A DNA stretch of 64,000 nucleotides from the NCBI GenBank assembly GCA_022565355.1, contig JAIUMU010000001.1, positions 434,001 through 498,000 of the forward strand, in the 5' to 3' direction. Position numbers and translations under genes: made by a program. This stretch comes from Idiomarina sp. (lineage in GTDB: Bacteria > Pseudomonadota > Gammaproteobacteria > Enterobacterales > Alteromonadaceae). The notes below the pieces were generated by a model. That model was given only the letters and a program-made list of their open reading frames with translations, was not told the DNA's origin and searched no databases. This document shows, in pieces, positions 33,738 through 49,765 of the stretch. Numbering within the stretch: position 1 is the first letter of the stretch; each line of letters opens with the position of its first letter.

Positions 33738-33759
33738 AATACTCTTAACCCTCTGCCGC

Positions 33760-34764
<1,005 letters not shown>

Positions 34765-34816
34765 CTACTCTTAGGCTAGTTATAACGGGAGTTTTACACC
34801 ATTTTTCAAAGGCGCA

Positions 34817-34825
34817 ATCATAGCA
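34817..34825 (-). promoter_or_regulatory. Extended -10 promoter for pheST-ihfA
   Basis: Minus-strand TGCTATGAT, an extended -10 element, about 65 bp upstream of pheS; no good -35 is seen. It could give pheST-ihfA its own transcription now that it is separated from rplT. Confidence 0.5.
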
Positions 34826-34880
34826 TAAAAATGCCACAGGGTAAGTTAGATATGCTGCCTTGATGTTTTGTGCAAGCAAG

Positions 34881-34909
34881 AAAAAAAGCCGGCATCCAAA
34901 GATGCCGGC
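34881..34909 (-). terminator. Rho-independent terminator after protease 1
   Basis: GCCGGCATC / GATGCCGGC stem with a four-base loop, followed on the minus strand by seven U. It closes the protease/kinase block on the pheS side. Confidence 0.92.
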
Positions 34910-34938
34910 AAATCGCTCTCATCACTTAGCTTGGGAGG

Positions 34939-37401
34939 TTAGTAAAACGCTTTATGCAAGCGTGTTGCAGCTACTGCGTAGTCAGCACGGGTGATCCGTT
35001 GCTTTGGTTCAAATGTGGCAGTAATCGTTGGTTCTAAATCCAATAAGCCTTGCTTAACATGGAAACGAACCGCTAATAAACCAGCTTCAATAGACGCTTG
35101 CACATAACCACGTAGCTCTACTGGAATATCTTTGGCATCTGTAACTGGCACTGGTTCACCGTTAAAATAAGCAACCACATCACCATCAAAGTTGGCTACC
35201 TGGCTGCCTAAGCCTAACGATTGAATTAATGTATATGCCAGCTCAGCTTTGGTTACCCGACCATTTGGTGTAAACCGATCGCTATTAGCAACGATAACAC
35301 CGGGTTCGAATTGGCTACGATCCCGCAATGCTGCACCGCGTGCTGTTGTTGCTTCGGCTATTAGCGCCGCAAATCCGTCTACATCGCTATACTGCGCTGC
35401 AGAGGTTGCGATCTGACGTACGCCGCCACCCATCACTTTAAAATCAGCCAATTCAATGCGGCGTAACTCCCGATCCGGATCGAAACTCTCACCACGGCCA
35501 TCCACTAAGCGATTTTGCACCGCGTATTCAATAAAGCCCCGCGCTGGATGCGATTGCACATCGTGCAAGCCCGCAAACGCACCAGCGCGCTCCTGCACCA
35601 CACGAACATCGATATCGCCTGGAACGCCGTATCCGTTAGTTACATTTAGCGGATCAAGCGCAACACCCGATAGTCCGCCAACGCCTCTGAGTTCAAGAGT
35701 CCATTCGCCCGCTACGCCTGGCGCTGTCGCCGCAATATTTTGCCCAAGCACCGGTAATGAAACACCTGAACCATACCGATTACCATTTGGATCGGTAAGC
35801 ACGATAGCCAATGTGTTTTCAGCTACATTCGCACTTGCAGACACCAACGTGATATCACTTCCTACGTTAAAGCTATATCGCTCAGGTTCACCTACTGGGG
35901 AGAAGTAAGCTGGAATTGTTTCATCACTGCCTACTTCAATCGTGGCTGAAGCGTTAAATTCACGCTGTAAATTGTTCACGCCATTCGGCTCAATGTTGAA
36001 CGAAGCAGCCATTTTCACAGCCTCATAGGCATTCACGTAGCCAGCACCAACTTCCCAATCTTCTCTGCCTGGCATATTGGTTGCGGTATATTGCAAGATA
36101 TCTTTCACTTCACGCCATTCAAGAGATGGATTTACTTCCAGCATCAACGCAACAATACCAGCTACGTGTGGAGCCGCCATTGAGGTACCGCTTTTTGCTG
36201 TATAGTAAGGTAAGTGGCCTAATTCGATGCGTTCTGCATCATCTGTTAAACTCAAAGCACCTAGTGGATCGGATTGCACACGAGCAGAAATAACCCCTAC
36301 CCCAGGAGCAGTTACCGTTGGTCGATCAACCCATTCGAAGGTTTCGCCATGAATACTTACTTCACCACCTCTATCGCGCTCACCGCGGCTAGAGAATGAG
36401 GCTAAATTACCGTTAGCATCGCCCGCGGCAACAGTAATTACCCATGGCGCCTTTTTAAAGTTACCTGTGATGGTGCCAGCACCAGAGCCAGAGTTACCGG
36501 CTGAGAACACTACAACTACGCCTCTATCGGCCAGTGCTTTTGTGGCAATGTTAGTAGGATGGTTTGGGTCAAAATCACTGCCGGTATCAGCAGTAGAACC
36601 AAATGAGTTCGTAATCACTCGAATACCGTAGCGCGTTTGGTTTGCTAAGGCATAATCAAAACCACCTAAGGTATCCAATAAAAATAATGCTGCGCCAGAG
36701 CCATAACCAATAAGGTTGGCGCCTGGAGCGACACCTTCATATAAACCACCAGACATCACACCATCGCCGCCTACAGTTGCTGCAACATGCGTACCATGGC
36801 CACCTAGCTGATCCGTAGTTGCTAGATTCTCTTGATAGGTAATCGGCAATAAAGGTGAAAGGCCATTTAAGTTAATTGCCGCAGCAACGTTTTGAATGGT
36901 TCGGGTTGGATATTCTACGTCACGGTGAAGCCCATCAATTCCAGAATCATTCACCACTACACCAACGCCACGACCGGTAATTGGGAAGCCATTGATGCGT
37001 AGATTGCGGTCATTCCGTAAGCGATTTACGCCGGTAAGTTCCGTTTCTTCAGCGTTTTCATAATCCATCTGATGATTCAAATATACCGATCTCACATCAG
37101 GAAGCGCCGTAATCGCTTGTATTTGCCCAAGATCGGCAACAACACCAGCAATGGGTAATTTTTGGAATGTGGTGCCCGTAACACCAAGATTTTCAAGTGC
37201 AAGCACTTGTTCTTGTGAAAGTGGACCTTCGCCTGCAAAGCTTACAACAAGCTCAACGCTTCCCTGCAGTGAACCTGAATCTAAAATTGATTGTACTTTT
37301 GGACCAATTGTTGCGGCGTTCGCATTCATTGCGAACATGGTTGCAACGGTGATCGCTGCCAGTTTTAACGGTTTAAATGTAGCTGTTGTTTTGCTTTTCA
37401 T
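34939..37401 (-). CDS. Secreted subtilisin-like serine protease with SLH-like C-terminus (copy 1)
   Basis: Exported S8 family protease of 820 residues. The signal peptide cleaves near NANA|T (residue 30), an I9-like propeptide spans about 45-110 and the catalytic domain about 140-450. The triad is Asp152 (VVNDSGID), His202 (GHGTHVA) and Ser407 (SGTSMAAPHVAG), with Asn303 as oxyanion residue (AGNSG). A beta-rich region follows (about 470-610). The last 200 residues look like SLH modules: HPARGFIEYAVQNRLVDGRG with FDPDRELRRIELADF, then FTPNGRVTKAELAYTL and FEPKQRITRADYAVAATRL. SLH modules anchor proteins to cell-wall polymers in Gram-positives and are unusual in gammaproteobacteria. It is paralogous to the protease at 43929-46400. 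The promoter carries the element shared by both copies. Confidence 0.93.
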   Translation of the reverse strand: MKSKTTATFKPLKLAAITVATMFAMNANAATIGPKVQSILDSGSLQGSVELVVSFAGEGPLSQEQVLALENLGVTGTTFQKLPIAGVVADLGQIQAITALPDVRSVYLNHQMDYENAEETELTGVNRLRNDRNLRINGFPITGRGVGVVVNDSGIDGLHRDVEYPTRTIQNVAAAINLNGLSPLLPITYQENLATTDQLGGHGTHVAATVGGDGVMSGGLYEGVAPGANLIGYGSGAALFLLDTLGGFDYALANQTRYGIRVITNSFGSTADTGSDFDPNHPTNIATKALADRGVVVVFSAGNSGSGAGTITGNFKKAPWVITVAAGDANGNLASFSSRGERDRGGEVSIHGETFEWVDRPTVTAPGVGVISARVQSDPLGALSLTDDAERIELGHLPYYTAKSGTSMAAPHVAGIVALMLEVNPSLEWREVKDILQYTATNMPGREDWEVGAGYVNAYEAVKMAASFNIEPNGVNNLQREFNASATIEVGSDETIPAYFSPVGEPERYSFNVGSDITLVSASANVAENTLAIVLTDPNGNRYGSGVSLPVLGQNIAATAPGVAGEWTLELRGVGGLSGVALDPLNVTNGYGVPGDIDVRVVQERAGAFAGLHDVQSHPARGFIEYAVQNRLVDGRGESFDPDRELRRIELADFKVMGGGVRQIATSAAQYSDVDGFAALIAEATTARGAALRDRSQFEPGVIVANSDRFTPNGRVTKAELAYTLIQSLGLGSQVANFDGDVVAYFNGEPVPVTDAKDIPVELRGYVQASIEAGLLAVRFHVKQGLLDLEPTITATFEPKQRITRADYAVAATRLHKAFY

Positions 37402-37445
37402 AAGTGTGCCCTCTGTAACACGAAATTAACAAGGACACATTTACA

Positions 37446-37484
37446 TGCAGCTACATCTTTTTATATCAGGGAGATCCCCGAACT
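37446..37484 (-). promoter_or_regulatory. Protease promoter element, copy 1
   Basis: GGGAGATCCCCGAACT (37469-37484) with TGCAGCTA (37446-37453) nearby. On the minus strand it reads AGTTCGGGGATCTCCC just upstream of a TATAAA-like -10, about 70 bp before the protease start. The GGGA-GA-TCCC core is an inverted repeat. The same pair of boxes precedes the other protease gene. Confidence 0.55.
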
Positions 37485-37529
37485 TTTGCATTTGGAAATC
37501 GGGGGATTATTCGCGGGATAGATTATAAG

Positions 37530-38159
37530 TTATTGATATATATTCTTTTTTACCGCTATGCGGATAAGTTCCGCAGTAGTGGTTACATTAAATTTCTGCA
37601 GTACTTTGCCACGGTGATGCTCCGCTGTTTTAGTCGCCATATTGAGCAAGCGACCTATTTCTTTCGTAGGATGCCCTTGCACAACAAGGTGAAATACCTC
37701 GCGCTCTCGCCGAGTTAAATTTTCCAAGCTAGGAACACGCCCTCCTTGCTTAAGTGCTTCATTAAGAAGTTCTGGAAACACTCGCGCGCCTGCATATACC
37801 TTGCAAATAACCTCATATAACTCATCACCAGTAGCATCCTTAAGCACATAGCCAGCCGCTCCAGAGTGATAAAATGCCTCCATGTACTCGAGCTCGTTAT
37901 GCATGGTAAGCACAAGAACCTTGGCATCTGGCCGTTGCAGTAAAATTTTCTCAATCGCAACCAAGCCATTCATCTTCGGCATTGCAATATCCATCAGAAT
38001 TACATCGGGTTGGTGGCGAATCACTGCTTTGGTAAGATCAAGCCCATTATCGCACTCAGCAAGCACCTGAATGTCTGGATACACCTCTAACATTTTCACC
38101 ACACCCTGCCGCATGAGCGTGTGATCATCAGCGATCACTAGGGAAATATTGGCTTTCAT
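37530..38159 (-). CDS. NarL/FixJ-family response regulator
   Basis: Two-component response regulator of 209 residues. The receiver domain has the acidic pocket ADDH (10-13), phosphoacceptor Asp57 (LMDIAMP) and switch residues in LVLTMHN and GYVLKDA (Lys near 107). The C-terminal LuxR-type helix-turn-helix is LTRREREVFHLVVQGHPTKEIGRLL, followed by MATKTAEHHRGKVLQKF, a NarL-type DNA recognition helix. Its ATG overlaps the stop of the histidine kinase gene (ATGA). It is the best candidate to bind the element shared by the two protease promoters, which is inference. It is the last gene of the STK-HK-RR unit; protease copy 1 follows with its own promoter. Confidence 0.94.
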   Translation of the reverse strand: MKANISLVIADDHTLMRQGVVKMLEVYPDIQVLAECDNGLDLTKAVIRHQPDVILMDIAMPKMNGLVAIEKILLQRPDAKVLVLTMHNELEYMEAFYHSGAAGYVLKDATGDELYEVICKVYAGARVFPELLNEALKQGGRVPSLENLTRREREVFHLVVQGHPTKEIGRLLNMATKTAEHHRGKVLQKFNVTTTAELIRIAVKKNIYQ

Positions 38160-38836
38160 AAGCGCACCTGAACGGTGATATGAGTGCCATTATCCGGCCG
38201 TGTTTGCACACTAAAGGTTGCATCAAAAGAGGCCGCACGATCAAGCATGCTGCGTAAACCAACCCCCTTTTCTACAGTGTCGTATGCAAATCCCTTACCG
38301 TTATCGATGATATCCATACGGAAGGCCTGCCCATTTCGGCAAGCAAATACTCGAACTTCGGTAGCCTCAGCGTGCTTCAGAATGTTCGTGAAGGTTTCTT
38401 GGGCAATTCGAAATACCATAATATTTAAATCAGCTGGCAGTTCATCTTCGATATCAATTTCGAGTTCGTACTGAATAGGCTCTTGCTTAAACATGGTTCG
38501 CGCTAACCAGCGCAGTGCGGCATGCAAGCCTAAATCGTCAAGCACGGTTGGCCGCATCAAGCGAGCCATTGTGCGGATATCTTCCATTACGCTATCGGCC
38601 AGCTGGTATAGATCTTCAGCGTCTGCAGATTCTTCTCGGCGCTGCTTTAATCTACGCGAGAGAATAGCTAACGATTGCCCTACGCCATCGTGTAGATCAT
38701 GGGCTAACTGATTGCGCTCTTGTTCCTGCTGATTCCACACCCGTTTGGCCAAATCACGGAGTTCACTCTGCTCTTGCATCAATAACTCGCGCAATTGTTG
38801 CTGAATCTCGGATAGCGAATCGAATGTACTACTCAC
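38156..38836 (-). CDS. Soluble NarX-type sensor histidine kinase
   Basis: Histidine kinase of about 226 residues with no membrane segment or recognisable sensor domain. A short N-terminal coiled coil (LREL-LMQEQ-LAKR) leads to HisKA_3 dimerisation (NQLAHDLHDGVGQSLAILSRRL, phosphoacceptor His in LHD) and a HATPase_c domain (NILKHAEATE, IDNGKGFAYD, GVGLRSMLDRA, NGTHITVQV). I chose the GTG at 38836 because GGAG lies seven bases upstream; the GTG at 38842 is possible. The start overlaps the end of the Ser/Thr kinase gene, and its end overlaps the regulator gene. Lacking its own sensor, it may receive its signal from the kinase/TPR protein encoded just upstream. Confidence 0.92.
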   Translation of the reverse strand: MSSTFDSLSEIQQQLRELLMQEQSELRDLAKRVWNQQEQERNQLAHDLHDGVGQSLAILSRRLKQRREESADAEDLYQLADSVMEDIRTMARLMRPTVLDDLGLHAALRWLARTMFKQEPIQYELEIDIEDELPADLNIMVFRIAQETFTNILKHAEATEVRVFACRNGQAFRMDIIDNGKGFAYDTVEKGVGLRSMLDRAASFDATFSVQTRPDNGTHITVQVRL

Positions 38837-41800
38837 GCTCACACTCCATATAAAACCAACAACGATATCGTGTTGCTTGCTCCGCAGGTAACGAACTAAG
38901 CCAAGCTAACTTGGATTCATCACTTTGATTAGTTGTACCCTGGGTTTGTTGTATAAATAAATGATTGCGCCAGTGGTCAGGGAATTGTTGTAATACTCGA
39001 TCAAGTTCATCCGCAGTTTTTAACCCATCGCGAACCGCTAAATAATGCACATGCAAATATTCTTTATAAAACGAAGGCCGTATTGCATGCAAAAGTACCT
39101 CTTTATCTGCAATGTTGAGGCTTTCAGGAGCTAGCTCCCATAATGACAACCGGATTTTCAACTCTGTATGTAACGGCAAATTGGTATCATTGAGTGCGTT
39201 TTTCAGCATTAGCTGTTCGCTAGCGGCAGTGCTGCTTCCCGTTACGTGATGATAACTCCACGAGAGCCATGCAAAAACCACCGATTGTTCTCTCGTAAAT
39301 GCATCTTGCGAGGTTTTAAGTTGTTCTTGTGTTGTTAAGAAACATTCCTCATCAGCTAACCAAAAACACATTTCTAATTTCCACAATGAGTTTTCAATGA
39401 TTGCCCGATAATCTTGAATCGATATCGCTTGCTCAATTGCCAGCGTAGCATTGCTCATGGCCGCGTCTATATTTCCGAGCCCAAAGTTACGCATACTGAA
39501 CAGAAAGTTTAAAAATGCCTGCTCAATCGGGCGATTTTCACCGATATCACTACTTACGTTGGCAAGCATCCGCGTAGCGGTTTGATATTCGCCACGATGA
39601 AGATGTAAGTTGGCCAACTGCAGCTCCGTTCTTAATCTGCCACTCTGGTGATCAATACGGCTAAACAACGTATTCGCTTGGCGCCAGAAAATATCCGCTT
39701 GGCTAAAATCGCCAGATAAGAAATAAACAAATGCCACATTATTAATAGTTTCTGCTTGTTCTTCTGTACTGCCATAGCGCATCCGTAAATCCAGCGCACT
39801 ACGAAAATAACGCACTGCCGATTCATATATACCTTGCTCCTCCGCTAGGTAACCGCGAACATTCATAACCTGGGCAGTGCCGCGATGATCATTGAGTTCT
39901 GCGAAAATATCAGCGGCTTTTTGTAGTTGCATGTCGGCTGCTGCATATTCTTGTTGAATAGCAAGCACATTTGCCAAGTTGCCTAGGGTAACCGCTTGGC
40001 CCGCTAAATCGTTACTTTCCTTACGCACCGTTAATGCTTGTTCAAAATAGCTACGTGCTTCAGAGTCATTACCAAGGCGAAAATAAGCAACCCCGAGGGC
40101 GTTTAGTATTGTGCCTTGGCCTAAAAGATCTTCTTGTTGGCGATAGCGAATTAGTCCTTGCGCAAGCTCGTGATGAATTGCACCTTGAATATCGCCTTGA
40201 TTAATACGCAAACGCCCCAGTTCAAACCAAAGGTTTCCTGAGTTCGGATCAATTTTCAGAGCGTTCTCAAGCAATTGCTCCGCTAACGCAACATCATCCA
40301 TTTGCTGAGCAATAGCAGCTCTTTGTTCTAATATAGTGGGTCGGTTTGGATACATCATCAACAAGGCATCTAATGCGGCAGCGGCAGATTCGAGATCCCC
40401 TTGTAAATTAGCCTCAAGCACTCGACCTTGCAAAACCCAATAACCCGCTCCCTCACTCGCACTGTGGGTAAACAGTTGTTCCAGCAATGCATATGCTTTG
40501 TCATTTTCCTCGAACGAACTGGCACCCTGCGCTAAAGCAAACCAGAACGCCGCGAGATTTTGGTAATCCTGCTCGTGTTGTAACCGCAACTGTTCAATTT
40601 GCGCAAAGCTTTCAGCCGCTTTAATTGCTACCACTACACTGGCTAAATCGGCAGATAATGCGTCACTCGAGGTGGCATACTTGTGCACCTTTAAATAATC
40701 ACTCAAGTGTTGATAAATCTCTTGATAGGTAGATAGCACGCCATTTTCCAGCGAAAAGGTTGCAACCCCGAATATTTGATTTACTGGATAATCATGTAAA
40801 TACACCTGAACGTGATCTCCTGCACTATCCTCCGTTACAGGTGTTTCAATAAAAATCAGGGTAACAACATTCAGTAACGCAGCTAATCGCTGCCGATCAC
40901 GATCACTCTGAAAGGGATTTAAGCCAAGCTGCTCTACAAGTTCATTAACGCGCTCTGCATACATTACCGAAAGTTCTTTCTCACCTGAATAGGTTACAGA
41001 AAGCATCTGCACGATACGTTCAGCATCGCTCGAACCGGCCGTTTTCACGAAAGCGATGCGCGCAGCCGCACTCACATCGGCAGGCGCTACAGCAGGCGGC
41101 TCACTATCCCGATAAATTTGCTGTAGTACTACAGCACCAACAAGCAATATAATTAATGCCGCCAAAATCGAACTGCGCCAAGGGTTAGCGGCAGCGGTTT
41201 GTTGTATCACCGCAGCAAGGGTGGGCCGTTTCTCCGGGCGTGTTTCGAGCATTTTCTGTGCTCGTTTTAGCCAACGTAGCCGCCATAGGTAAACACGAAG
41301 CCCCTGCTGAGGAACCGCGTGAACAACCCGTTCAATCACCTTACCAAAAGCATAGATATCAACAGCTGGAGAAGCATTCTCGCCATCGTCAAGTTCAGGT
41401 GCACGATAACCAACAGAGCCACTGCCACGATTAACGACAGCACCCTGAGCCGCACTAATACCAAAATCTGCAACGATTAAATCATTGTGTTCATTAATTA
41501 ATAAGTTTGCAGGTTTAATATCACCATGAATAATTTGCCCTCGATGGCATGCTTGAATACCACTAAGCAGGTGCTGCAGCCAACGTTCCGCATCGGCCAT
41601 AGTAACCTTCCCGCTTAATCGATCTGCGAGGGTTTCACCGGCAATATAATCCATCGTGTAAAAAACGTAATCTGCATCACGATAAAATTCATGCACGCGA
41701 ATAATGTGGGGAGCGGAAATTTTGCGGGCGGCGAGGAGTTCATCGCGCAATTGTTGGATTGCCGTTTCTGAGAGCTCAGTTCGGCGCGCTAATACTTTAA

Positions 41801-41984
41801 TCGCTATGATCTTGTCGGTTACTTGGTCATGAGCACGATAAACGCTCGCTTGCCCACCTCGGCCAAGCTCCTCTTCAATCAAAAAGCGATCGGCTAATAG
41901 GGTTCCAGCAAGTATCCCAGTATCGGCAATCACAGTTGTGAGGATATCATCCTGAATCCCATCATTAGGGTTCGGTATATTCAC
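38829..41984 (-). CDS. Hanks-type Ser/Thr protein kinase with TPR C-terminus
   Basis: Predicted membrane Ser/Thr kinase of 1051 residues. The kinase domain (about 34-265) has a Gly-rich loop GRGGQASV (41-48), Lys63 in AIKVL, catalytic loop HGDIKPAN (153-160, HGD instead of HRD as often in bacteria), DFG (173-175) and APE (195-197). One membrane segment follows (about 272-290), then an extracytoplasmic region of about 750 residues. Its second half is a long TPR array (for example GNLWFELGRLRINQGDIQGAIH; TILNALGVAYFRLGNDSEARSYFEQAL). Start is GTG at 41984. The membrane topology places the kinase in the cytosol and TPRs in the periplasm. Gene overlaps and an upstream FHA-GAF protein suggest a phospho-relay with the histidine kinase and regulator; the signal is unknown. 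Confidence 0.92.
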   Translation of the reverse strand: MNIPNPNDGIQDDILTTVIADTGILAGTLLADRFLIEEELGRGGQASVYRAHDQVTDKIIAIKVLARRTELSETAIQQLRDELLAARKISAPHIIRVHEFYRDADYVFYTMDYIAGETLADRLSGKVTMADAERWLQHLLSGIQACHRGQIIHGDIKPANLLINEHNDLIVADFGISAAQGAVVNRGSGSVGYRAPELDDGENASPAVDIYAFGKVIERVVHAVPQQGLRVYLWRLRWLKRAQKMLETRPEKRPTLAAVIQQTAAANPWRSSILAALIILLVGAVVLQQIYRDSEPPAVAPADVSAAARIAFVKTAGSSDAERIVQMLSVTYSGEKELSVMYAERVNELVEQLGLNPFQSDRDRQRLAALLNVVTLIFIETPVTEDSAGDHVQVYLHDYPVNQIFGVATFSLENGVLSTYQEIYQHLSDYLKVHKYATSSDALSADLASVVVAIKAAESFAQIEQLRLQHEQDYQNLAAFWFALAQGASSFEENDKAYALLEQLFTHSASEGAGYWVLQGRVLEANLQGDLESAAAALDALLMMYPNRPTILEQRAAIAQQMDDVALAEQLLENALKIDPNSGNLWFELGRLRINQGDIQGAIHHELAQGLIRYRQQEDLLGQGTILNALGVAYFRLGNDSEARSYFEQALTVRKESNDLAGQAVTLGNLANVLAIQQEYAAADMQLQKAADIFAELNDHRGTAQVMNVRGYLAEEQGIYESAVRYFRSALDLRMRYGSTEEQAETINNVAFVYFLSGDFSQADIFWRQANTLFSRIDHQSGRLRTELQLANLHLHRGEYQTATRMLANVSSDIGENRPIEQAFLNFLFSMRNFGLGNIDAAMSNATLAIEQAISIQDYRAIIENSLWKLEMCFWLADEECFLTTQEQLKTSQDAFTREQSVVFAWLSWSYHHVTGSSTAASEQLMLKNALNDTNLPLHTELKIRLSLWELAPESLNIADKEVLLHAIRPSFYKEYLHVHYLAVRDGLKTADELDRVLQQFPDHWRNHLFIQQTQGTTNQSDESKLAWLSSLPAEQATRYRCWFYMECERE

Positions 41985-42063
41985 CTCAGCAGTTACCTCT
42001 CATACGCTAGGATTGTTCTCATTTATATGAACATTGTGGGGAAGTAAACGGTGTTTAACAACA

Positions 42064-42094
42064 GAGCGCTATATACTCTTTACACTATAGCGCT
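42064..42094. promoter_or_regulatory. Inverted repeat between FHA and kinase genes
   Basis: AGCGCTATA / TATAGCGCT, a perfect 9-bp stem with a 13-base loop, without a strong U-tract. It may be an attenuator or an operator in the 112-bp gap. Confidence 0.45.
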
Positions 42095-42096
42095 AA

Positions 42097-42924
42097 TTAA
42101 GAATTAGCAAGTGCCTGGTCTATCTCTCGCAACCCAAAAACAATACCAAGCTGCCGTGCATATGCGGTAATTACCCGTAAATCGATATCTGTAAAAGCAC
42201 GGGATATTTCCGTGCTATCTGCGTATAACACCGCATAAATGCGGCCATTGAAGCCAACAGGCACGCAAATCAAAGAAGCTAGCCCATATTCAATAATACT
42301 ATGCGCTTCACGCAGCACAGAGTCGTCGGCTATGTTCGCCAATACAACTGCTTGATTTTCAACTACTGCTCGTTTAATTGCACTGCGGCTACCGATAAAA
42401 TCAGTGGCGCAAGACCATTCTGGATTACCGCAAGATTGAATCACCTCACCTGCCTTATCTAACAGCAGTAAAGCTGCTCGTTCTCGGGGAAATAGATTCT
42501 GCAAAATCTCGGTGGCGAAACTTGCAAAGGCTTCCAAATTCATAGTTTCAGCAAGCCGCTGCCTGCTGCTTTTAATTTGCTTAAACTGCCAGCTCGATTC
42601 ACTGTCGGCTACCACAGCGTCGCGATAAGGTACCCGCGTTGCTGCACAGTTAACTTGGCCTAATCTAAATTGGCTAAGCTCTCGGTTTAAACAAAGTTCT
42701 GTTACGCGTTGTTGCTCAGAATAGCAACCACCGCTGCTGTTCAAATCCTGTAGCATCCAAGTCCCATCTTGAAATTGAATACGAGCATGAGCTCGCGATA
42801 CTGCTGGGTGATTTAAACGAATATCAGCATTTACACCGCGCCCAACAACGTAAGGTCGCCCTTCAAGAAGAAGAGCAACCTGGCTTGGTTGGTCAAGCAA
42901 GTTCATCTGCAAACGTAACGGCAC
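42097..42924 (-). CDS. FHA-GAF domain protein
   Basis: Cytosolic protein of 275 residues. An FHA domain occupies about 20-90 with the phosphothreonine-binding pattern GRG (28-30), SRAHARI (43-49) and LNSSGG (61-66). A GAF domain follows (about 115-270: FATEILQNLFPRERAALLLLDKAG, SLICVPVGFNGRIYAVLYADS). FHA domains read phosphothreonine made by Hanks kinases, so it likely couples the kinase encoded downstream to an output or to a small-molecule signal held by the GAF domain. The upstream secreted-protein gene ends 15 bp before its start, suggesting one operon. Confidence 0.92.
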   Translation of the reverse strand: MPLRLQMNLLDQPSQVALLLEGRPYVVGRGVNADIRLNHPAVSRAHARIQFQDGTWMLQDLNSSGGCYSEQQRVTELCLNRELSQFRLGQVNCAATRVPYRDAVVADSESSWQFKQIKSSRQRLAETMNLEAFASFATEILQNLFPRERAALLLLDKAGEVIQSCGNPEWSCATDFIGSRSAIKRAVVENQAVVLANIADDSVLREAHSIIEYGLASLICVPVGFNGRIYAVLYADSTEISRAFTDIDLRVITAYARQLGIVFGLREIDQALANS

Positions 42925-42939
42925 GCAATCCCCCTAAAC

Positions 42940-43806
42940 TTACAGAATCCGTAAGCTGTAGCGAATCGTTCGAGCTTGCGCAAGAAGCGTTCCACCCACG
43001 TTCTCTAAATCTTTCGATGAACGCCAAATTGAAGGCATAACAGCACTTTCGGCAGTTTCCAAAATAGTGATAATCTCATTTATGGTAGTTAACGCCGAAC
43101 TGTAATTGCCGTTGTTTACTTGGCTTTGTAGTGCAGAAAATGCTGCCGACAATACACTATAGGTTGGCGATGCAATTAAACTTGATTGCGCCTGTAGGTA
43201 ATCCCCGAAGCTGTTCACCTTGCTGGTAATTACACTTGTTGGTGCACGAAGATCGGCAACAATCAGAAAATCAGAAAAGGTTCCCATTCCACCACGAGCA
43301 CGATAGCTACCGGCACCAGTTGTAACCGTTATATCTTTAAACTGGCCACCATTCGAGCTATGAAACAAGCGCAGCGGGGAGCCTGCAACGTATTGTAAGT
43401 TCTTTGTATAGATTTCAATTTCTGCCACGCCTTCAAAACTAAAGCCTCGATCGGCGATGGGTTGAATGGAAATCAATACGGGGAAATCCACAGGTAATGA
43501 CACTAATGTGCCCGGCAAACGATTTAAAACACTAGTATTCAGTGGCGATACCAATTGAAAATCAAGATTAAAATTCTCCGCAGCAACGCCTACTGCATTT
43601 TCAAATCGTACAGCCACTTCAAGTTCAATCAAACTTGTAAGCTGCACTTGCGCAGTAAATCCATCACTTGTGTAGGTTACGTCAACTTGGCTGGCGGCCT
43701 GCGCTGAATTAGCAATGGATAAAGAACCAATAAATAGAAACATTGCGCTCACGCAATACATGAACAATGAGCGGTTTTGTGCATGTTGTTTTGCTGAAAT
43801 TGCCAT
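42940..43806 (-). CDS. Exported protein of unknown function
   Basis: Protein of 288 residues with a signal peptide (cleavage near QAA|S, about residue 38) and no family I recognise. The mature part starts with beta-strand-like segments (VDVTYTSDGFTAQVQLTSLIELEVAVRFENAVG), continues with FSFEGVAEIEIYTKNLQYVAGSP and a Gly-rich GAGSYRARGGMGTF, and ends in helices (residues about 195-285). I chose the ATG at 43806, which has CAGGAG at the right distance; an ATG 8 codons upstream would place that site inside the gene. It is encoded between the second protease and the FHA-GAF gene, so it may be a protease substrate, chaperone or sensor partner; this is guesswork from position. Confidence 0.75.
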   Translation of the reverse strand: MAISAKQHAQNRSLFMYCVSAMFLFIGSLSIANSAQAASQVDVTYTSDGFTAQVQLTSLIELEVAVRFENAVGVAAENFNLDFQLVSPLNTSVLNRLPGTLVSLPVDFPVLISIQPIADRGFSFEGVAEIEIYTKNLQYVAGSPLRLFHSSNGGQFKDITVTTGAGSYRARGGMGTFSDFLIVADLRAPTSVITSKVNSFGDYLQAQSSLIASPTYSVLSAAFSALQSQVNNGNYSSALTTINEIITILETAESAVMPSIWRSSKDLENVGGTLLAQARTIRYSLRIL

Positions 43807-43880
43807 TACTGAGCTCCTGTTCAGAAACATTTTGTTACAAACTGATTAACACAAATGTAACGTCTGTTTGAATTTAGATC

Positions 43881-43908
43881 AATCGGTTCACATCCATGTG
43901 TTCCGATT
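43881..43908. promoter_or_regulatory. Interrupted inverted repeat upstream of the unknown secreted protein gene
   Basis: AATCGG-TT-CACAT-CC-ATGTG-TT-CCGATT: two stacked stems with a TT/TT mismatch. No U-tract directly follows on the minus strand. It lies about 75 bp before the start and may be an operator. Confidence 0.45.
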
Positions 43909-43928
43909 TACTTGTTTTTCCGATACTT

Positions 43929-46400
43929 TTATTGGAAATAGCCATCAAATAAACGACCAGCCCATACCGAATATTCCGCTCGAGTAATACTTTTGTTCGG
44001 ATTAAATGTTGCTGATATCGTTGGCTCTAAATCAAATAAGCCCTGCTTAATTGTAAAATGCACGTTTGTTACTGATAAGTTCAAGGCTACTTGCACATGA
44101 CCACGCAAATCGCGAGGTATTTCATCTTGGTCTGCAAGCTCTATCGTTTTGCCTTGGTAACTCACCGTAATCGGCTGATCTGGGTCAAACATATGTGCCT
44201 CAGCCTCTAATCCAAGCACTTGCACAAAACTATAAGCAAGGTCCAATTTGCTCACTGCATCACGAGGCGCAAAATCACCAGCCACACTTAATATCGCTGG
44301 TTGTTGAGCATATTCAGTATCACGTAATGCACCACCCAATTGGCTTGCAGCTAGAATGAAGCTTTCCTTATTATGGGTTAACTGAGTAGCGTTTGGTGCA
44401 GGCTCGTTTAATAAATCCCGATATTGGCGAACTGCTGAACCCATTACTAAGTACTCCGCTAATTGCTGACGTTCGAGTTTCGCATTTGGACGAAAGCGGC
44501 CATTATGAAGCCCATCAACTAACCGGCGGCTAATAGCGTATTCAATTGCCCCTTGGAATGGGTGGCCTTCGATATCGTCAATGCCCTCATAACCTTCAGA
44601 TTGTACGAACTCGATATTACCAGAAATGATTTCTGGTACGCCCGGGCCATTCGTGATGCCAAGTGGATCTGCTTCAACTCCCGAGAGTGAGGTTAAGCCG
44701 TAGGCGTATAATTGCCATGTTCCCGGCTGTCCTGGAGCAGAAACACGTAATCCAGTTTCCAGTGCTGGTAGGCTGAGATTGCCGGAATACTCTGTACCAT
44801 CGGGCGCAACCAATACCAACTTAACGGTATTTGCTAAAGTATCGGCACTCGCTTTCACCCAAGCGGTATCACCATCTACAGCAAACGAGAACCGATCAAG
44901 TTCGCCAAGAGGGCTATATAACACCTCAAATGCTTCCACACGCTCACTGATAGAAGTGAGCGCATTAGCATTAAAGCTACGCAAACTATTTACGTTTTGC
45001 TTGAACTCAGGATTTGCGCCTAGTGCTGCAGCAACTGCCGCTCGCGCGTTAATAAAGCCAGCACCTACTTCCCACGTTTCTCTGCCTGGCATGTTGGTTG
45101 CGGTTTCTTTCAGTAGCTCAACATATTCCAACGGCTGCCAATTTGGATTGGCTTCCATCATGAGGGCTAATACACCTGAAACATGCGGCGTAGCCATTGA
45201 AGTTCCAGAAATCATGGTATAGAACGGTAGGTATTCCTCTTCAATCACACCTACATCATTTGCACCGCCATTAGCGGTAAGGTTTGTGGCTGCTCGCGTG
45301 GAAATTGTGTCTACACCTGGTGCAACAATAGTAACATCATTGGTATAGGTCCATTCAGAGCCATCTGGCATGGAAAATGTACCACTCTCCCCCGCTAAAC
45401 CGCGAGATGAAAAGTTCGCTAAATCACCATTTTTTGTTCCTGCGCCAACTGACACGCCCCATGGAATTTGCGCATAAGGATTATGGGTATCTTCACCGGG
45501 GCCAGAGTTACCTGCGGCAAATACTGAAAGAATCCCAAGTTGGTAGGCCTTGTAGGTGGCAAGCGTAATCGGGCCGTTCGGATCAAATTTCCCTGAACTA
45601 CCCCAAGAGTTGCTAATAATTCGAATCGGGCTATCAAACGAGTACACATTACTAATCGCATAGTCAAAGCCACCGAGCGCATCCAATATGGCTATACCAC
45701 CACCTGAACCATAGCCCACGAGATCAGCGTCTGGGGCAACACCCGCATATTTTCCATTCGACATCACACCGTTACCGGCAATAGTGCCAGCTACATGGGT
45801 TCCATGGCCTGAGTTAGTATCCGTGTTGATCTGCCCTTCTAGCCAAGCACCATTGGTGCCAAGAATACGCAGTGCTTGTGCATGCGTTAACCCTTGCACG
45901 TTTTCTACCACGGTATCACCAAAGAAATGATCCTGATGGCTCGCATCAATACCACTATCATGAACCACAACGGTAACGCCCTTACCAGTAAACTCAATGC
46001 CATTCCGATCAATAAAATCCTGGCCTTGTAACTGATCTACACCCGTAATTCTGCGGGAATCCGCATTAAAATACTCCAGCGGACGATTCAACCAAACTGA
46101 ACGTACTTCTGGCTTTTCACTAATTGAGCGAATCTGATCTGGGTTGGCAAGTACGCCGATAATAGGCAATGAGCGAAATTGCACGCCATCGGTGATACCT
46201 AAATCGAGTAATTGAGTGAGTTGATTTTCCGATACCGGTTCGAGCTGGTCATAACTCACCACAACCATTACTTGGTCGGTAATATCCAGCGAATTAAGCG
46301 TAGATTGCAGGGTTTCTCCAAGCACACTTGCTTGCGCCTGCGCAGCCATAGAAAGCCCAATGGCTGCACTTATGGCTAATGAAGTAGCTGTTTTTCTCAT
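43929..46400 (-). CDS. Secreted subtilisin-like serine protease with SLH-like C-terminus (copy 2)
   Basis: Exported S8 family protease of 823 residues, paralogous along its whole length to the protease at 34939-37401. Signal peptide (cleavage near QAQA|S), I9-like propeptide (about 40-108), catalytic Asp148 (VVHDSGID), His199 (GHGTHVAG) and Ser401 (SGTSMATPHVSG), with Asn298 in AAGNSG. The C-terminal region carries SLH-like units: HPFQGAIEYAISRRLVDGLH with FRPNAKLERQQLAEY, then FAPRDAVSKLDLAYSF and FNPNKSITRAEYSVWAGRL. The two copies differ most in the loops of the catalytic domain, for example a longer segment after the Asp. It heads the block of minus-strand genes (secreted protein, FHA-GAF, kinase, HK, RR). 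The promoter holds the shared element. Confidence 0.93.
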   Translation of the reverse strand: MRKTATSLAISAAIGLSMAAQAQASVLGETLQSTLNSLDITDQVMVVVSYDQLEPVSENQLTQLLDLGITDGVQFRSLPIIGVLANPDQIRSISEKPEVRSVWLNRPLEYFNADSRRITGVDQLQGQDFIDRNGIEFTGKGVTVVVHDSGIDASHQDHFFGDTVVENVQGLTHAQALRILGTNGAWLEGQINTDTNSGHGTHVAGTIAGNGVMSNGKYAGVAPDADLVGYGSGGGIAILDALGGFDYAISNVYSFDSPIRIISNSWGSSGKFDPNGPITLATYKAYQLGILSVFAAGNSGPGEDTHNPYAQIPWGVSVGAGTKNGDLANFSSRGLAGESGTFSMPDGSEWTYTNDVTIVAPGVDTISTRAATNLTANGGANDVGVIEEEYLPFYTMISGTSMATPHVSGVLALMMEANPNWQPLEYVELLKETATNMPGRETWEVGAGFINARAAVAAALGANPEFKQNVNSLRSFNANALTSISERVEAFEVLYSPLGELDRFSFAVDGDTAWVKASADTLANTVKLVLVAPDGTEYSGNLSLPALETGLRVSAPGQPGTWQLYAYGLTSLSGVEADPLGITNGPGVPEIISGNIEFVQSEGYEGIDDIEGHPFQGAIEYAISRRLVDGLHNGRFRPNAKLERQQLAEYLVMGSAVRQYRDLLNEPAPNATQLTHNKESFILAASQLGGALRDTEYAQQPAILSVAGDFAPRDAVSKLDLAYSFVQVLGLEAEAHMFDPDQPITVSYQGKTIELADQDEIPRDLRGHVQVALNLSVTNVHFTIKQGLFDLEPTISATFNPNKSITRAEYSVWAGRLFDGYFQ

Positions 46401-46465
46401 AATAATTTCTCCGCGAATTTCAATACAATAAAATGTTAATGAAACGTTACGGAATGAAGAGTGCC

Positions 46466-46505
46466 TGCAGCTAGGTACGATGGGTATAGGGGAGATCCCC
46501 GAACT
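46466..46505 (-). promoter_or_regulatory. Protease promoter element, copy 2
   Basis: GGGGAGATCCCCGAACT (46489-46505) with TGCAGCTA (46466-46473). On the minus strand AGTTCGGGGATCTCCCC stands just upstream of TATACC, about 90 bp before the protease start. The order and spacing match the copy at 37446-37484 within one base. Confidence 0.55.
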
Positions 46506-46508
46506 AAT

Positions 46509-46580
46509 GTATTAACTCAGGTATTAACTCAGGTATTAATGTAGGCTTTAATATAGGTGTTAAAGTAGGTATTAATTTAG
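46509..46580. repeat. Tandem repeat, 6 x 12 bp
   Basis: Six head-to-tail 12-bp units following GTATTAAnnnAG: the first two are identical (GTATTAACTCAG), the next four vary at a few positions. It fills the DNA between the protease promoter and the rplT terminator, at the border of the inserted block. Confidence 0.9.
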
Positions 46581-46585
46581 GTAAA

Positions 46586-46612
46586 ACAAAAAGGGAGCCA
46601 TAAGGCTCCCTT
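46586..46612 (-). terminator. Rho-independent terminator after rplT
   Basis: AAGGGAGCC / GGCTCCCTT stem with a four-base loop; on the minus strand followed by UUUUUGUUUU. It ends the thrS-infC-rpmI-rplT unit, preventing read-through into the protease block. Confidence 0.92.
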
Positions 46613-46634
46613 CAATGCTGACCAGGTTTTCTGC

Positions 46635-46994
46635 TTACGCAGAAAGACCTTCTTTAGCTTTCTCAACCAATGCAGAGAAACCTGCTTGATCGTGAACAGC
46701 GATATCGGCCAAAATCTTACGGTCGATTTCTACTGAAGCTTTCTTTAAGCCATTGATGAAACGGCTGTATGAAAGGCCACCTTGACGTGCAGCAGCATTA
46801 ATACGAACGATCCATAATTGACGGAAAGTACGTTTCTTGTTGCGACGGTCACGGTATGCATATTGACCGGCCTTGGTTACTGCTTGCTTCGCAACGCGGA
46901 ATACGCGACTACGTGCACCATAGTAACCTTTGGCTTGTTTCATTATCTTCTTGTGACGCGCGCGCGCCATTACACCACGTTTTACTCGTGCCAT
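46635..46994 (-). CDS. rplT: 50S ribosomal protein L20
   Basis: Ribosomal protein L20, 119 residues (E. coli 118), needed early in assembly of the 50S subunit and a translational regulator of its own operon in E. coli. The sequence is classic: [52 protein letters not shown] and [13 protein letters not shown]. It follows rpmI after 14 bp. Here it is the last gene of the unit, instead of continuing into pheM-pheST. Confidence 0.98.
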
Positions 46995-47008
46995 GGGTCA
47001 GTCTCCTC

Positions 47009-47206
47009 TTATGCGAACGGTAACATGCGATCTACTAAAGCAACATCGCTCTTATGAACCATGCTCTTTGCACGCAAGTGACGCTTCCGCTTCGAGCTCT
47101 TCTTGGTCAGGATGTGACGCAAGTGAGACTGCTTGCACTTGTAACCACCAGAGGCGGTTTTCTTAAAACGCTTTGAGGCGCTTTTTACACTTTTCATTTT
47201 AGGCAT
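47009..47206 (-). CDS. rpmI: 50S ribosomal protein L35
   Basis: Ribosomal protein L35, 65 residues, the family's usual length. It begins [18 protein letters not shown] and contains [15 protein letters not shown]. The start at 47206 has GGAG eight bases upstream; an in-frame codon ten positions earlier gives an extension with no homology. It lies in the infC-rpmI-rplT order. Confidence 0.97.
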
Positions 47207-47284
47207 TGCATAAACTCCGCATTGGTTGCCATTCAAGATAACATGGTGAGGTAATCGGACTGATTAGCTTCTTGTGTACCAGTG

Positions 47285-47827
47285 CTACTTGCTACTAATT
47301 GGGGCCAGAACCATAATCATTTGGCGCCCTTCAGCCCTGCGAGGGAACGATTCAAGAGTTGAAACTTCTTCTAAATCGTTTTTAATTCGATCTAGCAATT
47401 CAATTCCAATTTCTTGATGTGCCATTTCTCGGCCACGGAAACGAATGGTAACTTTTGCTTTGTCACCACCCTCAAGAAAGCGACGCAGGTTGCGTAGTTT
47501 TACCTGGTAATCGCCTTCATCAGTTCCAGGGCGGAATTTAACTTCCTTAACCTGAATCTGTTTTTGCTTCTTCTTTTGCTCTTTCTGTTGCTTACTTTTC
47601 TCGTAGAGGAATTTACCGTAATCCATCACACGACACACAGGCGGCTCAGCGTTAGGACTGATTTCCACCAAGTCCATTCCCGCTTCTGCAGCAATTTCGA
47701 GAGCTTCGCTTAAACTAACTATCCCGCGTTGCTCACCTTCGCCGTCTTGTAAACGCACTTCAGGAGCCGTGATAGTTTCATTAATCCGAGTTTTGTCGAC
47801 CTTTTGGCCTTTTTTTCCGCCTTTAAT
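47285..47827 (-). CDS. infC: Translation initiation factor IF-3 with an ATT start codon
   Basis: IF-3, 180 residues from the ATT at 47827-47825, the same length as in E. coli. It prevents premature 50S joining and monitors start-codon choice. The N-terminal domain shows [20 protein letters not shown] and [24 protein letters not shown]; the C-terminal domain shows [27 protein letters not shown]. The codons ATT AAA GGC GGA AAA correspond to E. coli infC, where a rare AUU start allows IF-3 to repress its own translation. A GGAGGA ribosome site lies seven bases before the ATT. The TTG five codons upstream would put that site inside the gene. Confidence 0.96.
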
Positions 47828-47840
47828 TGTGTGTTCCTCC
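47825..47840 (-). promoter_or_regulatory. infC ribosome binding site and ATT start
   Basis: Minus-strand GGAGGA (47835-47840), ACACACA spacer and ATT (47825-47827). The only start consistent with the site is non-canonical and agrees with known IF-3 autocontrol. Confidence 0.9.
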
Positions 47841-47848
47841 AAAAAATT

Positions 47849-49765
47849 TTAAGAAATTACGCGTGATGTTACATCTTCGCGTAAGCGAGCCATGAAGTCG
47901 GCTACTGCAAATTTGCCTAAATCTTCACCTCGCCGGGTTCGCACCGCTACTTGTCCTTCTTCGACTTCGCGATCACCAACCACCAATAAATATGGCACAC
48001 GCTTTATCGTATGCTCGCGGATTTTAAAGCCAATCTTCTCATTTCTCAAGTCAGCTTTTGCTCTAAAACCCTGTTTTTTCAATTCTGCTACCAAATTTTC
48101 AGCATATTCTGCCTGATTATCGGTAATGTTCATTACTACAACCTGATTTGGGGCTAACCATACTGGGAAGTAACCCGCATACTCCTCAATAAGAATTCCC
48201 ATGAAACGCTCGAGTGAACCGAGAATCGCACGGTGAATCATCACTGGGATATGGCGTTCGTTATCTTCACCAACATAAGTGGCGCCTAAACGGTCTGGTA
48301 ACGCAAAATCTAGCTGAATTGTACCACATTGCCAGGATCTTCCTAAACAATCGTGTAAAGTAAATTCAATTTTAGGCCCGTAGAACGCCCCTTCACCCGG
48401 TAAATACTCAAATTCAATGCCGTGGCTCTTCAACGCATCGCTTAAAGCCGCTTCTGCGCGATCCCACATGGCATCGTTACCTAAGCGTTTTTCTGGCCGC
48501 GTTGAGAGTTTTACCACGATTTCTTCAAAGCCGAAGGTTTTATAAACTTCGTACACCATTTCAATACAACCCGCTACTTCGGCTTGCACTTGTTCTGGGG
48601 TACAGAAAATATGAGCATCATCCTGAGTAAAGCCGCGCACACGCATTAAGCCATGCAGCGCCCCACTCGGCTCATTACGGTGGCAGCAGCCAAATTCTGC
48701 CATACGTAATGGCAGATCGCGGTAGGATTTCAGGCCTTGATTAAAAATTTGTACATGCCCTGGACAGTTCATTGGCTTCACTGCGTACTCGCGGTTCTCT
48801 GAGGACGTAGTAAACATCAACTCTGAGAACTTTTCCCAATGCCCTGATTTTTCCCATAGTACGCGGTCCATCATTAATGGGCCTTTTACTTCTTGGTAAT
48901 CATATTCATTAAGCTTTTCGCGAACATATTTTTCTAGTTCTTGGAAAATGCTCCAACCGTTATGATGCCAAAACACCATACCCGGGGCTTCTTCCTGCCA
49001 ATGGAACAAATCTTGCGCCTTACCAATTTTCCGATGATCGCGCTTTTCTGCTTCTTCCAAACGTTGTAAATATGCTTTTAATTCTTTTTTATCAGCCCAA
49101 GCAGTTCCGTATATGCGTTGCAGCATTTTATTATCAGAATTACCACGCCAATAGGCTCCAGCCACTTTCATAATCTTGAAGTGTTGGCAGAAACGCATAT
49201 TTGGCACGTGCGGGCCACGACACATATCCACGTATTCTTCGTGATAATACAGGCCTGGGCGATCATCACGCGCTACGTTTTCATCGAGAATTTCAACTTT
49301 ATAGCTTTCACCACGTTGTACAAACACCTCGCGAGCTTCTTCCCAACTCACGCGTTTCTTCACTACATCGTAGTTGGTTTTCTGTAATTCCTGCATGCGC
49401 TTTTCTAGCGCCTCAAGATCATCCTGTAGGAGAGGCCGATCGATATCAACATCATAGTAGAAACCATTATCAATGGTTGGGCCAATCGCCATTTTGGTGT
49501 TTGGCCATAATTGCTTAATCGCATGGCCAAGCAAATGCGCACATGAGTGGCGAATAATTTCCACGCCTTCGTCATTTTTTGGCGTAATGATGGCTAAATC
49601 CGCATCATTTTCGATAAGCTCACAGGCATCTACCAAGGTGCCATTAATGCGGCCCGCTACTGTTGCTTTGGCTAAACCAGGGCCAATATCATTCGCAACA
49701 TCAAGTACAGACACAGCGTTTGCAAACTCGCGCTTGCTACCATCGGGAAGAGTAATTACAGGCAT
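47849..49765 (-). CDS. thrS: Threonyl-tRNA synthetase
   Basis: Class II aminoacyl-tRNA synthetase of 638 residues (E. coli 642). N-terminal TGS domain ([18 protein letters not shown]), editing domain with [11 protein letters not shown] and the hydrolytic-site region, and a catalytic core with [30 protein letters not shown] and [11 protein letters not shown] (zinc ligands Cys, His, His). The C-terminal anticodon-binding domain ends before infC. Charging of tRNA-Thr with editing of Ser-tRNA is its role. The 165-bp leader holds a GCGCTACTAGCGC inverted repeat (49853-49865). It may contribute to thrS control, but I see no clear anticodon-like operator. Confidence 0.98.

Follow-up and report, generated by a model that had tools for sequence, protein, structure and literature searches.

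A five-gene signalling cassette is encoded in the window studied here, a stretch of 64,000 nucleotides from an Idiomarina sp. genome (GenBank assembly GCA_022565355.1, contig JAIUMU010000001.1; G000:C1:434001-498000) of 2.7 Mb in 14 contigs that is approximately 95% complete. As judged from comparative sequence analysis, the cassette is common to many marine bacteria. Its core consists of a DUF6689 protein, an FHA-GAF protein, a membrane Ser/Thr kinase (STK) with a TPR region, a soluble HisKA_3 histidine kinase (HK) and a NarL-type response regulator (RR). In the window, two exported SLH-subtilases, S8b and S8a, flank this core, and candidate operators shared by the protease genes suggest that the cassette switches on dedicated exported proteases. 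On balance, we consider it probable that the whole forms a composite envelope-sensing switch.

All seven genes described in a first-pass annotation of this DNA are confirmed by their domains (Pfam/NCBIfam) and coordinates. They lie on the minus strand in the order S8b, DUF6689, FHA-GAF, STK, HK, RR and S8a, with the STK and HK genes overlapping by 14 nt and the HK and RR genes by 4 nt. Both of the flanking paralogous proteases that it reported are present, although the second (34939-37401) lies outside the interval given for the locus, 37530-46400. The exported protein that had been left without a function belongs to PF20396/DUF6689 (E 8.8e-72). The features, with E-values or the basis of the assignment in brackets, are:

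34939..37401, minus strand: S8a, exported SLH-subtilase next to the regulator gene (Peptidase_S8 3.4e-38, SLH 1.3e-9)
37469..37482, minus strand: operator-like site TTCGGGGATCTCCC upstream of S8a (exact match)
37530..38159, minus strand: RR, NarL-type response regulator with H181 in the recognition helix (Response_reg 1.8e-24, GerE 3.7e-15)
38156..38842, minus strand: HK, soluble HisKA_3 histidine kinase (HisKA_3 8.7e-8, HATPase_c 2.8e-7)
38829..41984, minus strand: STK, Hanks-type kinase with one membrane segment and a predicted periplasmic TPR region (Pkinase 6.5e-40, TPR_12 6e-23)
41115..41171, minus strand: predicted membrane segment of STK, residues 272-290 (hydropathy scan)
41928..41939, minus strand: STK tail T16-T17-V18-I19, predicted autophosphorylated FHA docking site (tail pattern)
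42097..42924, minus strand: FHA-GAF adaptor protein (FHA 1.5e-13, GAF 1.5e-12)
42940..43830, minus strand: DUF6689 exported protein, core member (PF20396 8.8e-72)
43929..46400, minus strand: S8b, exported SLH-subtilase at the upstream end of the cluster (Peptidase_S8 2.1e-41, SLH 1.2e-10)
46490..46503, minus strand: operator-like site TTCGGGGATCTCCC upstream of S8b (exact match)

Related loci were collected by two routes. A kinase search in 58 related genomes gave a match at E 1e-20 or better in 10 genomes, those of G031 and G057 being short kinase-domain matches. In the samples screened for PF20396, the family was present in 35 of 295 genomes at family level, 18 of 394 at order level and 3 of 369 at class level; these samples overlap, and one of the 18 order matches (G547), a weak fragment with a stop and without core neighbours, was rejected as spurious. 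The resulting 39 stretches, 11 around kinases like the window STK and 28 around PF20396 genes, correspond to 37 loci besides the window once the spurious stretch (L105) is removed and L024 and L025 are joined as one locus; among the 35 family-sample genomes with PF20396, a locus was read in 27. In 35 of these 37 loci, a single contig carries the complete core, with the gene order unchanged and all five genes on the same strand. Both exceptions are cut by contig ends: locus B of the window's own genome, with all five genes on two contig ends (L024 and L025, its two halves), and L069, which stops inside the kinase gene. L063 has an interrupted reading frame in its FHA gene, as does L079 in its regulator gene. 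The presence of DUF6689 is by construction in the 28 PF20396-anchored stretches and independent in the kinase- and S8b-anchored loci; it was found in the kinase-anchored loci, protease-less ones included. S8b directly precedes DUF6689 in 25 of the 37 loci. The hosts include Idiomarinaceae, Alteromonas, Kangiella, Colwellia, Pseudoalteromonas, Marinicella, Rheinheimera and Rehaibacterium, and the gene order kept in other genera indicates that the locus is more than a chance arrangement.

The second route was a scan with an S8b alignment, of which the best 80 of 260 relatives, representing 79 loci, were retained; since these were kept by similarity to S8b, they show linkage among close relatives and not its frequency over all subtilases. 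Many of the loci lie in genomes also reached by the first route. They comprise 46 proteobacterial loci, 31 from Bacillota (30 Bacillales and one uncultured Firmicutes) and two others (L179, L210). All five core genes are found near S8b in 43 of the 46 proteobacterial loci; in L161 and L168, the FHA gene is split in two. The three misses are a locus cut by a contig end (L173) and two extra subtilase clusters without the core (L166, L170). In the family sample, subtilases of the S8b/S8a type (E 1e-90) occur in 32 of the 295 genomes. PF20396 and the subtilase are both present in 31 genomes, the marker only in four (G001, G003, G016, G204), the subtilase only in one (G276) and neither in 259 (Fisher p 1.9e-36, a value that ignores kinship). 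The two sets share the same 11 of 52 genera, some members of which have neither (e.g. G018, G020, G023, G025), and in genus g50 S8a and the core are on different contigs. Co-occurrence of the families in other genomes, a point on which the first-pass annotation had beforehand let its proposal stand or fall, is thus seen both in the 35 of 37 loci and in the 31 of 295 genomes.

Sequence alignments show the catalytic residues to be intact. In STK, the Hanks-type kinase residues K63, E82, H153, D155, K157, N160 and D173-F174-G175 are invariant among 37 aligned sequences. A Pfam scan of STK gave no match to PASTA repeats, the protein containing TPR repeats instead. Because there is one strong hydrophobic segment, at residues 272-290, the TPR part is predicted to be periplasmic, in agreement with the earlier description, and the strongest hydrophobic segment is at the matching place in all 36 kinases scanned for hydropathy. 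In the FHA domain, G28, R29, S43 and H46 (the GR and SxxH motifs) are invariant in 37 aligned sequences; the Asn of the NG motif is present in many of these rows and substituted in the window protein. In S8b, the catalytic residues D148, H199 and S401 are invariant among 26 aligned S8b sequences, and both window proteases have the D, H and S motifs together with C-terminal SLH matches that place them among the SLH-subtilases.

That the FHA-GAF protein partners STK, as had been proposed, is supported by two observations. The window genome contains only two PF00498 matches, each adjoining one of its two STK-family kinases. Furthermore, the STK tail ahead of the catalytic domain is poorly conserved apart from one Thr with I/L/V at +3, which precedes the LAGRF Leu by 15 to 17 residues, a pattern resembling an FHA ligand. 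From 60 tails, two under 18 residues were excluded; the pattern at this fixed offset is present in 52 of the 58 others (shuffled mean 3.9, maximum 11) and in 22 of 27 nonredundant tails left after removal of those with at least 50% identity (shuffled mean 1.9, maximum 8). This tail Thr, T16 in the window, is therefore a predicted FHA docking site. Rad53 FHA1 is described as selecting its ligands at the +3 position and as able to bind a pTXXI motif too (PMC4037201), and autophosphorylation of the PknG N-terminal domain as creating the recruitment site of GarA (PMC12189002); the FHA domain of GarA is named in the title of a reference of PMC6213207.

HK has 228 residues and consists of HisKA_3 and HATPase_c only, which bears out the earlier description of a kinase without a sensor or membrane part. 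Its H51 is invariant in 25 aligned sequences, and as all 25 are sensorless, HK appears to want an input partner. In RR, D11, D12, D57 and K107 are invariant among 24 aligned sequences. With H51, D57, K107 and the GerE match (3.7e-15), the pair belongs to the NarL/VraR class of two-component systems; the membrane-bound sensor kinase of VraSR/LiaSR proper is a feature that HK lacks. By profile comparison, VraS and DesK/YocF come out as the best relatives of HK with solved structures, and VraR and NarL as those of RR.

The 14-mer TTCGGGGATCTCCC occurs exactly in only two places of the 2.7 Mb genome, upstream of S8a and of S8b. A loose form of this candidate operator ([ACG]GGG, 4-6 bases, CCC[CT]) was counted in the last 260 bases upstream of gene starts, taken as the first ATG and therefore sometimes misplaced. 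The set comprised the window and 44 named DUF6689-containing loci, with one S8b per locus. The loose form precedes S8b in 42 of 45 cases (shuffled mean 1.1) and S8a in 31 of 36 (1.7), compared with DUF6689 in 7 of 45 (0.9), FHA in 0 of 45 (0.3) and STK in 1 of 45 (0.4). In six Kangiella loci (L152, L155, L163, L172, L174, L180), a third, shorter subtilase (S8c) stands before S8b, and the loose form precedes it in 6 of 6 (shuffled mean 0.2). The loci that served for this count are also those, from the window and its relatives, in which the pattern was first spotted; genome-wide searches and locus B lie outside that set. Other flanking genes (n=296) have the loose form in 31 cases and a stricter form in 20, of which, by coordinates, 15 share the S8b intergenic region and five are small exported genes adjoining S8a. 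A strict long form was searched in 26 genome handles, G237 and G1027 having the same sites and being counted as one genome. It gave 10 distinct sites: five before S8b, two approximately 300 bases before S8a, and one each before an unlinked subtilase, before a small exported gene and at an unrelated place (G015:C25). The reversed control gave two matches in the same 26 handles. The strict form does not fit the operator variant of the window itself.

Locus B (L017-L022, L024, L025; seven genomes of the window's genus) is a second, protease-less copy of the core. None of its seven copies, which were seen only in this genus, has an adjoining subtilase, and the same holds for L103. In locus B, the candidate operator stands before DUF6689 in 7 of 7 copies, from which it would sit at the head of the core operon in loci that lack S8b and at the proteases in the others.

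The recognition helix of RR and the candidate operator change together. Of the 24 aligned sequences, those of the window and its two locus-A relatives have His at residue 181, a position that contacts DNA in NarL, and the remaining 21 have Asn; among 44 named core regulators, this residue is Asn in 42 and His in the two of Aliidiomarina. All six protease sites of the three H181 genomes have C just ahead of the G run. At the other 67 S8a/S8b sites that fit the pattern, where the helix has Asn, this base is A in 60, T in seven and never C. Within the window genome, regulator B keeps Asn and the locus B site keeps A. The H181/C change may represent a swap of regulator specificity between paralogues in a single genome.

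Related SLH-subtilases, 44-47% identical to S8b, are found in Bacillales. In 26 of 31 loci, a NarL-type regulator and a HisKA_3 kinase lie within 0.1 to 1.7 kb of the subtilase, and two of the five missing loci are contigs of 3 to 6 kb. The kinase, of 615-625 residues, has a long N-terminal part followed by GAF, HisKA_3 and HATPase domains in 4 of 4 cases scanned, with a weak MASE9 match in one. Near the subtilases of the 31 loci, STK, FHA and DUF6689 gave no full match, and what matches there were scored below 26 bits. In all three Bacillales genomes searched, the best match of the window RR is, by coordinates and score, the subtilase-linked regulator, with narrow margins of 4.6 to 8.5 bits. 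A FastTree tree of 76 subtilases groups S8a with the regulator-proximal subtilase of Bacillales (99) and places S8b apart; the rows closest to the window in this tree belong to Aliidiomarina halalkaliphila and A. indica. Two further connections were considered and rejected: use of the same operator in Bacillales, found in 3 of 53 upstream regions (shuffled mean 1.6), and a specific descent of the FHA-GAF protein's GAF domain from the Bacillales GAF, as the profile match (E 1.8e-6) reflects GAF homology only. The Bacillales upstream regions contain another word, ACTTT[AT]GTA, in 19 of 53 cases compared with a shuffled mean of 0.2, the word having been chosen by eye from the same regions; it stands before the SLH-subtilases of L183, L184, L185, L190, L195 and other Bacillales loci.

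In the proposed switch, a periplasmic cue, probably handled with DUF6689, would activate STK via its periplasmic TPR domain; DUF6689 is placed with the sensor rather than with the proteases because it is kept in the protease-less locus B. STK would then autophosphorylate its cytoplasmic tail at the conserved Thr, T16 in the window, as the conservation of this residue suggests, and the phosphorylated tail would dock the FHA-GAF protein, consistent with the FHA-ligand pattern and the gene linkage. The FHA-GAF protein may represent the missing sensor module of the soluble HK, a GAF domain being fused ahead of the corresponding kinase in Bacillales. HK would phosphorylate RR, a step established for these families, and RR would bind an operator of the GGGG-N-CCCC type and switch the SLH-subtilases, for which comparative support is strong. 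Where this operator precedes DUF6689, RR may also switch the core operon. A more specific version, to which we give somewhat less than even chances, is that of a split sensor: a Hanks kinase in the membrane takes the place of the HK input domain and signals through an FHA-GAF adaptor docked on phosphothreonine. It is suggested by the N-terminal part and GAF being joined in one Bacillales kinase and separate, as STK and FHA-GAF, in the cassette. The resulting Thr-to-His-to-Asp chain for exported proteolysis would have been inherited or spread as a gammaproteobacterial unit, parallel to the one-piece GAF kinase of Bacillales.

An unlikely but serious alternative is that STK phosphorylates HK or RR directly, as is reported for PrkC-WalRK and Stk1-VraR, with the FHA-GAF protein being a separate substrate or a brake. 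The closest solved relatives, VraS for HK and VraR for RR, fit such a scheme, and reference titles in PMC12189002 and PMC6213207 concern the regulation of VraR through Stk1 phosphorylation and PrkC-WalRK, respectively. It leaves aside the presence of FHA-GAF throughout the core loci, the FHA-ligand-like Thr of the STK tail and the need of a uniformly sensorless HK for an input partner. The latter also bears on the idea that two modules (STK, FHA-GAF and DUF6689 on the one hand, the two-component pair and subtilases on the other) merely travel together without mutual signalling. Bacillales indeed own the two-component-subtilase half, with no full match to the other half nearby, but the protease-less loci retain all five core genes including the two-component pair, and the STK, HK and RR genes overlap, so that we regard independent modules as improbable.

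About equally improbable is that the GGGG-N-CCCC site serves not the linked RR but some other regulator, or that it belongs to a promoter. ATA frequently follows the site, a promoter might overlap it, and its operator role is read from sequence comparison; against this, it follows the cassette, locus B included, and the helix residue and operator base change together while paralogues in one genome keep separate variants. Finally, the PADLOC models PD-T4-6 and mad6 match STK via its kinase domain, and the PADLOC subtilase model matches both proteases (2.6e-19, 9.5e-26), as would be found in an anti-phage defence system of the kinase type. We consider this interpretation hardly credible and rejected it: the strong matches are limited to the kinase and subtilase domains, HK, FHA-GAF and DUF6689 are without a PADLOC match, RR matches weakly via its helix-turn-helix, and the setting is one of translation genes.

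Several observations weigh against the envelope-sensing switch as proposed. Seven core loci are without proteases, and in 4 of the 295 family-sample genomes the core marker occurs without a protease of this type. Other outputs must consequently exist, and exported proteases would be the usual, not an obligatory, output of the core. The earlier suggestion that RR acts on the protease promoters accordingly holds up in so far as the genes share a putative operator, but its simplest form does not fit the loci without proteases. The operator-like site is missing before 3 of 45 S8b and 5 of 36 S8a genes. When up to two mismatches are allowed, the 14-mer has 22 matches in the genome compared with 21 for a reversed control, and the strict pattern occurs in only 8 of the 26 handles, with none in 18. 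The covariation of helix (N to H) and operator (A to C) represents one lineage event, and the Thr pattern is absent from 6 of 58 STK tails. As for the comparison with Bacillales, holding the regulators together costs the tree 19.2 log units (p-AU 0.09), which gives no support for a single origin of the link between regulator and subtilase. A single ancestry of the gammaproteobacterial and Bacillales regulators is likewise unsupported, as the trees do not unite them, and the link between protease and two-component system is either very old or arose more than once.

The cassette differs from known systems in the way its parts are combined. It shares a HisKA_3 kinase and NarL-type regulator with the VraSR/LiaSR/DesKR/NarL class, but its HK has no membrane or sensor part and STK and FHA-GAF are encoded ahead of it. 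In mycobacteria, the FHA protein is not known to be encoded in a histidine kinase/regulator operon, in which the cassette differs. What is alike in the mycobacterial PknG or PknB with GarA is the recruitment of an FHA protein by a kinase phosphothreonine; for PknG, PMC12189002 describes N-terminal autophosphorylation as creating the GarA recruitment site. Cyanobacterial HstK-type hybrids also couple Ser/Thr and histidine kinases, and GAF/HisK architectures are among those drawn in the part of PMC1262709 consulted; these hybrids are one polypeptide, whereas the cassette uses separate overlapping genes, an FHA adaptor and a membrane TPR kinase. The Bacillales loci resemble it in having related SLH-subtilases near a HisKA_3 kinase and a NarL-type regulator, and differ in their GAF-containing HK, the lack of such STK, FHA and DUF6689 genes and another promoter word.

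Links between Ser/Thr kinases and two-component systems are known mainly as crosstalk between separate systems. Examples are cited in PMC12189002 and PMC6213207. Here, kinase and two-component signalling are encoded together and conserved as a unit. An adaptor, a predicted docking residue, a predicted operator and defined targets come with it, so that its logic can be tested directly. The cassette also gives DUF6689 a context. The DUF6689 sequence gave no match to solved structures below E 0.17, and the leading results of a literature search, which included few subscription papers, held no account of the cassette and did not name DUF6689. A survey of subtilisins names, in the part consulted, one SLH-domain subtilisin, from Thermoanaerobacter and of different architecture (PMC2605481).

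The cluster is situated within a run of translation genes (31347-49765 of the window), with rplT, and infC and thrS beyond it, on one side and both phenylalanyl-tRNA synthetase chains on the other. The rplT/infC/thrS and phenylalanyl-tRNA synthetase genes are often adjacent, and for this reason the cluster between them looks like an insertion.

Further operator-like sites were noted outside the core loci and beside S8a. In a Pseudidiomarina-like genome (G298, contig C3; L283 27-1469), the strict form lies just upstream of a subtilase that is not at the core locus. An additional cluster in Colwellia hornerae (L170 6383-14650) comprises three subtilases, each with an operator-like site in front, and a lone core-type regulator, which falls inside the clade of core regulators. 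The five small exported genes with the operator-like site in front are L143:21286-21858, L147:21622-22125, L148:21413-21934, L175:21306-21806 and L141:12625-13131. Four of their five products were scanned with Pfam and gave no match; all five have, as judged by eye, a PEP-CTERM-like tail, and these proteins beside S8a are likely a further member of the predicted regulon.

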